From Paeniglutamicibacter kerguelensis (GTDB taxonomy: Bacteria > Actinomycetota > Actinomycetes > Actinomycetales > Micrococcaceae): a stretch of 64,000 nucleotides of DNA. The notes beneath the pieces were generated by a model, which saw only the letters and a list, made by a program, of their open reading frames with translations, was not told the origin of the DNA and did not search any database. Positions 31,181 to 33,690 of the stretch are shown piece after piece (within the stretch, counting starts at the first letter, position 1; every line of letters starts with the position of its first letter). Location of the stretch: positions 2,728,001 through 2,792,000 of the forward strand of contig NZ_JAGIOF010000001.1 in assembly GCF_017876535.1 (NCBI RefSeq). Direction: 5' to 3'. The position numbers and the translations under genes are program-made.

Positions 31181-31519
31181 ATGGGATTCGGTACGATACG
31201 TCAGGTTGCCCTCTGGGCAGTGGTTTTGTCTGCCCTCGGCATTGGCGTGTATGTACTGGCCCAGGGCGTTTCGGCTCCCCCTCCGGTCAATCTCGGTCCG
31301 GGAATCACCATCCAGCAGAGCGACATCCCCAGCCGGTCGCGCCCGATTGCACCTGCAAATTCCGAGGCGTCCGGCACCCCCGCAACCCCAAGTTCAGCTT
31401 CGCCGGCACCAACCACTGTCATCCCCAGCAAATCGGCACCGGTCAAGCCGCTTCCCCCGTCAAAGGCCGACGACGATGATGACGACGACAACGACGACGA
31501 CGTTGACCTTGACGACTAG
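31181..31519 (+). CDS. membrane-anchored peptide with poly-Asp tail
   Basis: A 112-aa protein I cannot assign to a family. An N-terminal hydrophobic anchor (about 8-29) is followed by a Pro/Ser/Ala-rich stretch (about 31-95) and a C-terminal run of about seventeen residues that are almost all Asp (96-112). It would sit outside the membrane with an acidic tail suited to bind divalent cations or cationic peptides. No good SD precedes ATG 31181; CATACT seven nt upstream could be a -10 box for a leaderless mRNA. Its 3' end overlaps the sensor kinase gene in another frame, so it probably belongs functionally to that two-component system. Confidence 0.65.
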   Translation: MGFGTIRQVALWAVVLSALGIGVYVLAQGVSAPPPVNLGPGITIQQSDIPSRSRPIAPANSEASGTPATPSSASPAPTTVIPSKSAPVKPLPPSKADDDDDDDNDDDVDLDD

Positions 31520-33014
31520 CCACGCGGGGTCGATCCCGCCAGTAACCGATGGGGTTGCACGCCCCCGGCCCAAGGTTTCGCGACGGGGCTGGTCGGTGCG
31601 TTCGCGCGTCCTGGCCGGCATGCTGGGACTCATCACCATCGCGTTCATTGTCACCGGCAGCGTGGTGTATCTATTGCAGCTCTCCAGCATGGACGACCGC
31701 ATCGACGACTCGCTCCAACGCAGCGTCGAGGAGTTCCGGGTGCTGGCTGCACGCCATGCGGACCCTACGGTTTTCCCCGAACCGGTAACGGCCGAGGTCC
31801 TCCTCTACACCGCCATGCAGCAGACCTTGCCGGCCAACCACGAGGGCATGCTGAGCATCGTCAACGAAAAGGTGCGGTGGACCGCCCCCGAGGTCGTCGA
31901 CCTCAGGCTGGAAAACGATCCGGAATTTGTTGCGTGGGCCGCGGGCAGCACCTCGCTCACGGACGTGGTCGTGCAGTCGGTGGCCACCGCAAAGACAACT
32001 TATCGGGCGGTTTCGGTGCCCGTCTCCCTGGGCGATCAAGCTGGCCCCGCGCACCTCATCTTCGCCTACGACTACACGGCGGAAAAACGCGCACTGAACC
32101 AGGGTTTCCTCATGTACCTGTTGGTGGGGCTCGTCGTCTTGCTGACCGCCGGAGTCGCGGGCTGGTTGCTGGTGGGCCGCATCCTGCGCCCCATCACCTT
32201 GCTTCGGGACACGGCGCGGCAAATCTCCGAATCCGACCTTTCCCAACGCATAGAGGTTGTCGGGCGGGACGATCTGGCCGAACTGACAGTCACCGTCAAC
32301 GCCATGCTGGACCGCTTGGAAAACGCCATGACATCGCAGCGCCAATTGTTGGATGACGTTGGCCACGAGCTGCGGACACCGGTCACCATCATTCAGGGAC
32401 ACCTGGAGCTGATGGACCCGTTGGATCCCGACGACGTCGATCAGTCACGCGACATAGCGCTGGCCGAACTGGACCGGATGTCGTTCTTGATCAACGACCT
32501 GGTGACCCTGGCTAAGTCGAATCGAATCGACTTTGTTCAACCTGTCGCCACGAATGTTGGAACGCTATTGGACGACCTCCTGGACAAGGCGCATCCGTTG
32601 GGTGATCGGTCCTGGAAAATCGGCCATCGAAACGAGGCCGTTGCGGTCCTGGATCCCCATCGAATCACCCAGGCCATGCTGCAGCTGTGTTCAAACGCCG
32701 TAAAATTCTCGGCGCCCGGAAGCACCATCACGCTGGGAACCAACATCAATGGGTCGCCCGACGGGAAGAAGACGCTACGGTTTTGGGTGCGTGACGAAGG
32801 CATCGGAATCGCACCGGAGGACCAAGAAAGAATCTTCGAGCGATTCGGCAGGGGCCACAATTCAAAACGCACCGAAGGCTCCGGACTGGGTTTGAACATC
32901 GTGGCGGCGATCGCCGCCGCACACCATGGATCCGTGGACGTAAGTTCGGATCCGGGCATCGGTTCCACCTTCGTCGTGGAAATCCCCCTACGCGCAACAG
33001 GAGAAGCACATTAG
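31476..33014 (+). CDS. sensor histidine kinase
   Basis: A 512-aa membrane sensor kinase. TM1 lies at about 48-70 and TM2 at about 208-232; between them is an extracytoplasmic domain of about 135 residues. A HAMP domain follows, then the phosphoacceptor His in DDVGHELRTPVTII, the N box CSNAVKFSAPGS, and G boxes DEGIGI and GSGLGLNIV. The start is uncertain. ATG 31476 (AAAGG about 7 nt upstream) lies inside the poly-Asp codons of the previous gene and yields a Thr-rich N-terminus; no better in-frame start precedes TM1. The stop TAG overlaps the response regulator start. Confidence 0.88.
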   Translation: MMTTTTTTTLTLTTSHAGSIPPVTDGVARPRPKVSRRGWSVRSRVLAGMLGLITIAFIVTGSVVYLLQLSSMDDRIDDSLQRSVEEFRVLAARHADPTVFPEPVTAEVLLYTAMQQTLPANHEGMLSIVNEKVRWTAPEVVDLRLENDPEFVAWAAGSTSLTDVVVQSVATAKTTYRAVSVPVSLGDQAGPAHLIFAYDYTAEKRALNQGFLMYLLVGLVVLLTAGVAGWLLVGRILRPITLLRDTARQISESDLSQRIEVVGRDDLAELTVTVNAMLDRLENAMTSQRQLLDDVGHELRTPVTIIQGHLELMDPLDPDDVDQSRDIALAELDRMSFLINDLVTLAKSNRIDFVQPVATNVGTLLDDLLDKAHPLGDRSWKIGHRNEAVAVLDPHRITQAMLQLCSNAVKFSAPGSTITLGTNINGSPDGKKTLRFWVRDEGIGIAPEDQERIFERFGRGHNSKRTEGSGLGLNIVAAIAAAHHGSVDVSSDPGIGSTFVVEIPLRATGEAH

Positions 33015-33690
33015 CCGCATTCTGATCATCGAGGACGAGGAGCGCATCAGTTCCTTCGTTGCCAAGGGCCTGAAGTCGTCGGGATTCCAGCCGACCATCG
33101 CCGATACCGGTCTGCAGGGAGGGTACCTTGCACAAACCGGGGACTTTGAGCTGATCATCCTTGATCTGGGCCTCCCGGACGAGGACGGCTTCTCGGTGCT
33201 CAAACGAATCCGAAACACGGGCGTCGATACCCCTGTCATCATCCTGACGGCGCGCTCAAGCATTGACGACACAGTTGCCGGGTTGGAAGGCGGGGCCGAT
33301 GACTACATGGCAAAGCCATTCAGGTTCGAAGAACTGCTCGCGAGGGTGCGGTTGCGCCTCCGGCCCCAGGCCAACGGGGCAGACACGCGTGTCCTGCGCG
33401 TTGGCTCCCTGGAACTGGACCTGGGCAGCCGCCGGACCAGGCTGGCGGGTCGCGAGATCGACCTGTCCACGCGCGAATTTGCCCTGGCCGAAGCCTTCAT
33501 GCGCAACGCGGGACAGGTGCTGAGCCGCGAGCAGCTGCTCTCACGGGTCTGGGGCTACGATTTCGACCCCGGCTCCAACGTCGTTGACGTCTACGTCCGT
33601 TACCTGCGCAACAAGCTCGGGGCCGAGTGGTTCACGACCGTTCGCGGCATGGGATACCGATTGGACGATCCATCGGGTGGCCCAGCTTAG
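33010..33690 (+). CDS. OmpR-family response regulator, apparent AUU start
   Basis: A 226-aa response regulator. The receiver begins SRILIIEDEERI, with phosphoacceptor Asp52 in LIILDLGLPDEDG, Thr in ILTARSS and Lys in MAKPF. The winged-helix domain (about 130-222) ends RGMGYRL. The canonical receiver start lies upstream of the first in-frame ATG (33196, mid-receiver). The only place consistent with the family is ATT 33010, with AGGAG 6 nt upstream, overlapping the kinase stop as ATTAG. No ATG, GTG or TTG exists in frame near it. It is thus probably translated from AUU by coupling to the kinase, and it ends in a 4-nt convergent overlap with the ASCH gene. Confidence 0.85.
   Translation: MSRILIIEDEERISSFVAKGLKSSGFQPTIADTGLQGGYLAQTGDFELIILDLGLPDEDGFSVLKRIRNTGVDTPVIILTARSSIDDTVAGLEGGADDYMAKPFRFEELLARVRLRLRPQANGADTRVLRVGSLELDLGSRRTRLAGREIDLSTREFALAEAFMRNAGQVLSREQLLSRVWGYDFDPGSNVVDVYVRYLRNKLGAEWFTTVRGMGYRLDDPSGGPA

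Follow-up and report, generated by a model that had tools for sequence, protein, structure and literature searches.

We identified a response regulator gene in Paeniglutamicibacter kerguelensis that likely begins at an AUU codon, placed inside an ATTAG motif from which the upstream sensor kinase gene also takes its stop. The gene lies in the window, the stretch of 64,000 nucleotides that was analysed, and positions below are those of the window. The features concerned are as follows.

31181..31519, + strand: small ORF, upstream gene of this cluster, with a hydrophobic stretch at its N-terminus and an Asp-rich tail that overlaps the 5' part of the kinase frame
31464..33014, + strand: sensor histidine kinase (HAMP, HisKA, HATPase_c) with its TAG stop at 33012-33014; its own start is uncertain
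32999..33003, + strand: Shine-Dalgarno (SD) sequence AGGAG, 6 nt before ATT; best anti-SD duplex -7.4 kcal/mol
33010..33012, + strand: ATT, the putative AUU start codon of the response regulator, assigned from position, frame, relatives and SD
33010..33014, + strand: ATTAG, a 5-nt stop-start overlap in which the ATT start and the TAG stop have T 33012 in common
33010..33690, + strand: response regulator of the OmpR type (Response_reg and Trans_reg_C), 226 aa counting the fMet at ATT
33196..33198, + strand: GTG (Val63), the first in-frame canonical start of the regulator; starting there loses Asp52

The kinase start was taken as 31464, and the database entry P0122 begins 44 codons later. Neither Pfam nor NCBIfam matched the small ORF at 31181-31519. 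In the kinase frame its GAT/GAC run encodes a Met/Thr-rich stretch, and similar small ORFs occur upstream of the kinase in the genomes G011, G006 and G001 (L166-L168).

Position of the regulator start

The regulator frame reads SRILIIEDEERI from 33013, immediately 3' of the ATT, with an AGC codon directly after it. An earlier note on this DNA, made from the sequence, had proposed a start at ATT 33010, just ahead of the receiver and with Asp52 in its usual place, and this is borne out by the reading and by alignment. With Met1 at ATT, the receiver pocket residues Glu8/Asp9, Asp52, Thr80 and Lys102 fall at the expected positions, Asp52 being the expected phospho-acceptor. The protein matched PF00072 and PF00486 above cut-off, indicating a receiver plus a winged-helix output of the OmpR/PhoB type. 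Among the NCBIfam matches listed (25 of 90 families) no model reached its cut-off, the best being TIGR01387 (215 bits versus a cut-off of 279.2), and these 25 of 90 families gave no name for the target system of the kinase-regulator pair.

The same note had described AGGAG 6 nt upstream of ATT and no in-frame ATG, GTG or TTG nearby, and both statements hold: the SD is separated from ATT by a 6-nt spacer, the 22 open codons upstream of ATT include none of the three, and the next canonical start is the GTG at 33196, residue 63. The first in-frame ATG, which the note had said would delete half the receiver, is at 33307, and a canonical start would in any case cost Asp52. The conserved regulator protein is without a usable canonical start and has a strong, well-spaced SD, both of them traits expected of starts that are checked by IF3. 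RNA folding round the start was uninformative across 13 orthologues (-1.6 to -6.1 kcal/mol).

Start codons in related genomes

We aligned 87 actinobacterial loci (L001-L074, L103 and L154-L165), a start-codon count that left out the distant loci L075-L102 and L104-L110, several of which have other N-termini. ATG, GTG or TTG stands exactly at the ATT position in 82 of the 87 (with 80 distinct flanks, a few being duplicates), the exceptions being the window, G011, the partial alignment L046, and the distant L072 and L073 (51-52% identity). Without these last two, the alignment of relatives that had been proposed as a check gives a canonical start at this position in 82 of 85 orthologues at 58% identity or above, and ATT in the window and G011. 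The nearest named database proteins are from Paeniglutamicibacter, not from Arthrobacter in the strict sense, and 13 of 15 genomes of the genus carry the regulator gene, with ATT in two (the window and G011), ATG in ten and TTG in one. The other two, G004 (88% complete) and G012 (99%), gave no regulator match at the threshold used.

The nearest genome compared, G011, keeps the ATT at 93% regulator protein identity and with different flanks. It reads ATG-GAG-AAG-ACC-ATT-AGC, with an in-frame ATG 12 nt (four codons) before ATT, and its regulator is annotated from that upstream ATG (P0003); the window has CAG at that place. The G011 ATT was therefore dropped as direct proof of AUU use, and is evidence solely for the T and the overlap. 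This upstream ATG overlaps the GGAG that would serve the G011 ATT. The regulator of P. antarcticus is likewise annotated two codons up, as MTISRIL, and the ATT of these two genomes need not be a start codon. Their upstream starts could be genuine replacements or a matter of annotation, as is the GTG in the SD of sigR (PMC5472188). The closest protein relative, P0002 (95%, NPDC091659), is known from its protein alone and has Met annotated exactly at the ATT position; an ATG codon there would mean a change of state between close relatives.

A start at some other non-canonical codon, such as CTG 33022 (codon 5) or one upstream of ATT, seems unlikely to us. CTG is present at the 33022 position in all 13 genus orthologues, but it lies 18 nt from AGGAG, and initiation there would leave the first receiver strand without its Ser-Arg-Ile. 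The upstream ATG of G011 speaks for a start further up, but the window has CAG in its place.

Kinase stop, overlap and reading phase

The phase in which the kinase frame crosses the regulator start codon is the same in all 13 genus orthologues. The kinases of the 11 ATG/TTG orthologues read GAG there and end 23 nt into the regulator, whereas those of the window and G011 end at TAG, giving the short, 5-nt stop-start overlap that characterises termination-reinitiation pairs, albeit of the -5 type and not of the common -4 or -1 types. The claim that ATTAG also supplies the kinase TAG, and that ATG would lengthen the kinase, proved correct: changing ATT to ATG in the window turns TAG into GAG, and the kinase would gain 45 residues because the later TGA that closes the 23-nt run-on, still present in G011, has been lost.

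The phase itself restricts which start codons can overlap a stop. An overlapping stop must either begin at the third base of the start codon or end at its second base; canonical starts end in G and have T as second base, so no overlapping stop is possible in this phase, while AUU ends in T and the kinase stop can begin at its third base. This placing of the stop on the start is a new point, which the ATT state has and the ATG clade does not. The cost would be a weak start, probably one checked by IF3. The phase gives a better-founded reason for the AUU codon than the argument from dose does.

The same geometry brings up +1 frameshifting at CAU-UAG, yielding a kinase-regulator fusion, as the regulator does lie in the kinase +1 frame with a stop at the junction. 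We regard this as highly improbable: tRNA-His would need to shift its pairing from CAU to AUU at the expense of two mismatches, the SD spacing is unlike that of the prfB site, and in the 11 ATG/TTG relatives the two genes overlap but stay separate.

Recurrence of the T state

The last kinase codons overlie the regulator start, so that the kinase C-terminus reveals the third base of the start codon. Seven of 18 genus-level kinase cluster representatives (P0122-P0128 of P0122-P0139) end in GEAH, GEDH, GEDH, GEEN, GEDH, GEDH and GDDH respectively, which requires T at base 3, and P0129-P0139 continue through the overlap; a deeper kinase, P0141 (GQDH), looks like the T state too. ATT was read as DNA in two of the 13 genus orthologues, the window (P0122) and G011 (near match P0127), and for P0123-P0126, P0128 and P0141 the start codon is deduced from the kinase protein, with ACT formally possible.

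These data make a sequencing error at 33012 a very remote explanation. A single base separates ATG from ATT, but the same ATT occurs in G011 with different flanks, and the kinases of six further representatives stop at this point too. The P0122 kinase cluster comprises four contigs, the longest of 4,874,124 bases versus 4,182,687 for that of the window, a matter of cluster membership and not of sequence identity.

On the kinase tree the window forms a group with P0123-P0126 (98/93), which G011/P0127 joins next (95/96), and the start state changes at least twice; support for the nine T-state genus rows as a single clade is only 73/61. The regulator tree was built with 34 hand-picked database rows, and 16 of its 42 inner branches are unresolved. 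Its genus-level part holds 14 database rows outside a 27-row ATG/TTG clade, of which four are annotated from internal starts (P0036, P0051, P0075 and P0242), nine carry N-terminal extensions (P0003-P0008, P0011, P0018 and P0027) and only P0002 is given as MSRIL, and none of the 27 rows is annotated from an internal start. A fifth internal-start row, P0243, groups with the Arthrobacter outgroup, in which both starts read as DNA are ATG, so N-terminal truncation by itself is no proof of a missing start. The internal-start relatives P0036, P0051, P0075, P0242 and P0243 are of 192, 196, 183, 144 and 173 aa, and perhaps include further cases lacking a canonical start. The internal and extended annotations would fit a start that is invisible to gene callers, and short contigs may explain part of them. 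All genus comparisons rest on few independent events.

Selection on the N-terminus

Between the window and G011, codons 2-62 show dN 0.030 and dS 0.876 (4 non-synonymous and 23 synonymous differences), a regime shared by the remainder of the regulator gene (dN 0.040, dS 0.828). Against the 11 ATG/TTG orthologues, dN over these codons is 0.037 to 0.119, with dS of at least 0.80 (three comparisons saturated). Such strong purifying selection argues against a start at residue 63, and against gene decay with loss of the start codon. Decay would account for the absent canonical start, but we consider it very unlikely given the low dN in both comparisons and the T-state kinases of the seven genus-level representatives.

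The proposed AUU start inside ATTAG is well supported by its position, its SD, the lack of alternatives, the purifying selection on the N-terminus and the recurring T. Position, phase arithmetic, recurrence and selection are direct readings of the data, and from them we infer initiation at the AUU itself.

infC and Shine-Dalgarno strength in the genus

For infC, the gene of IF3, E. coli has an ATT start and Streptomyces an ATC start (PMC5472188). Across the 15 genus genomes (L111-L125) the infC start, assigned by homology, is ATT in seven and ATC in eight, with AGGAG-N6 before it in all 15. The window's infC reads CAGGAG-CTACAC-ATC-AGC and its regulator CAGGAG-AAGCAC-ATT-AGC.

The SD energies of the ATT orthologues are -7.4 (window) and -6.4 kcal/mol (L002, G011), compared with -9.0 for the TTG orthologue and -1.7 to -6.6 for the ten with ATG; L007 and L009 (ATG, with an identical flank) reach -6.6, as strong as L002. 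The kinase residue encoded over the SD is Gly in 7/7 T-state, 2/2 TTG-type and 0/9 ATG-type entries among P0122-P0139, the start types being deduced from protein except where DNA was read. The SD energies would fit compensation for a weak start codon, although few of the events are independent. A link of this kind between SD and start codon is reported for GUG and UUG, in some phyla but not all and not for coupled switches, and one of 61,358 reconstructed AUG starts switched to AUU (PMC5622118).

Other candidate starts in the genome

Among 28 receiver-domain matches in the genome, 27 have an upstream in-frame canonical start (48 codons upstream for L145), and only this regulator does not. The patterns GGAG-N5-8-ATTAG and AGGAG-N5-7-ATTGA gave 16 matches, 15 of which were examined (all but L179). 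The regulator site is the only one of the 15 that falls between two long ORFs (504 and 226 codons) without an upstream canonical start; L184 also lacks such a start, but has merely 66 and 60 open codons. The patterns were not clearly enriched in the genome (12 versus 17 control matches, and 4 versus 1), and no second convincing AUU overlap was found among the 15 of 16 matches examined. A motif common to five ATTAG matches is presumably 16S rRNA.

Proposed mechanism

Translation would begin at AUU 33010 with an initiator methionine and yield a regulator of 226 residues, the ribosomes arriving along two routes. Some would bind directly at AGGAG-N6-AUU, as on infC, and others, ending at the kinase UAG, would re-initiate at the AUU with which that stop has one base in common. 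The AUU would be retained since, in this phase, such a start also ends the kinase on the spot, and the stronger SD and tight coupling would partly offset the weak codon, the outcome being a low, kinase-linked amount of regulator that is sensitive to IF3. We consider this account as a whole probable, and the AUU start taken by itself more so; coupling, low yield and IF3 sensitivity are the parts of it that we infer.

The suggestion in the earlier note that IF3 could hold the regulator far below the kinase is plausible by analogy with infC, sigR and further examples in the literature, but the effect of the overlapping stop may instead be to strengthen coupling and so offset the weak codon. Short overlaps or distances are reported as a requirement for coupling, -4 and -1 being commonest and -8 next in H. 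volcanii (PMC10666635). In S. aureus in RPMI, non-canonical starts, the AUU of cvfC1 included, reached about 10% of the AUG level (PMC13009471). In E. coli, raised IF3 inhibits non-canonical starts and also cuts re-initiation at an SD-less AUG nearly threefold (PMC2268962). By extension, a re-initiated AUU could be doubly IF3-sensitive, or the AGGAG may protect it.

An appreciable possibility, if one we place somewhat below even, is that AUU serves as the start without any regulatory role, a weak codon that is tolerated and persists through drift or just for the T that ends the kinase. This reading is compatible with the AUU start and excludes just its role. The T is needed for the kinase stop in the window, which is without the run-on TGA, and other lineages have ATG at or just before the ATT position. 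The ATT is, however, common to G011 despite high synonymous divergence (dS 0.83-0.88), the SD of the window is stronger than that of most ATG orthologues, and infC and the non-canonical sigR start are both targets of IF3 (PMC5472188). We hold more tentatively to a broader reading, in which AUU is favoured as a third stop-start overlap (AUUAG, AUUAA or AUUGA) where canonical starts cannot form one, and couples the regulator tightly to the kinase at an IF3-dependent dose. The AUU would then be old in the genus and, in some lineages, partly replaced by nearby ATGs, and the species of the window would be locked into it by loss of the kinase run-on stop.

Comparison with known systems

The genus infC signal, AGGAG-N6-AT(T/C)-AGC, nearly matches that of the regulator, both having AUU or AUC behind a good SD; unlike the regulator, an unrelated protein encoded within a gene overlap, infC regulates itself (PMC5472188). 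The GTC start of Streptomyces coelicolor sigR is repressed by IF3, and resembles the present case in being a non-canonical start behind a strong SD, on an actinobacterial regulator belonging to a two-protein switch in which balance matters; its misannotation to an upstream codon is a further likeness (PMC5472188). It differs in having GTC in place of AUU, in carrying the weak start on the first gene of the pair, and in that the IF3 effect was measured, whereas our regulator is known from sequence (PMC5472188).

Yersinia pestis RcsD-Hpt is likewise a phosphorelay protein begun at AUU with a ribosome-binding site, and AUG raised RcsD-Hpt function, but its start is internal to a frameshifted gene and the portion of the source available to us mentions no stop-start overlap (PMC10191623). 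S. aureus cvfC1 (AUU) and ccpN (AUA) similarly have non-canonical starts with an extended SD, at about 10% of the AUG reporter in RPMI, but cvfC1 is the first gene of its operon and hence without such an overlap (PMC13009471). In the -4 (ATGA/GTGA) and -1 (TAATG etc.) overlaps, stop and start also have bases in common, which supports coupling, but these have canonical starts and another phase, and a 5-nt overlap of the ATTAG type is impossible with a start that ends in G (PMC10666635).

Our literature search, conducted mostly outside subscription journals, found no AUU-start response regulator and no AUU stop-start overlap. Few genes with an established AUU start are known, among them infC, pcnB, RcsD-Hpt and cvfC1. 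Here the putative AUU start is on a transcription regulator, its T recurs in the clade, and there is a simple structural reason for it, in that a T-ending start can overlap a stop in this phase and a canonical one cannot. The overlap rule would provide a testable guide to more such starts, possibly missed by gene callers, and, if true, the dose of a two-component system would be tied to IF3.
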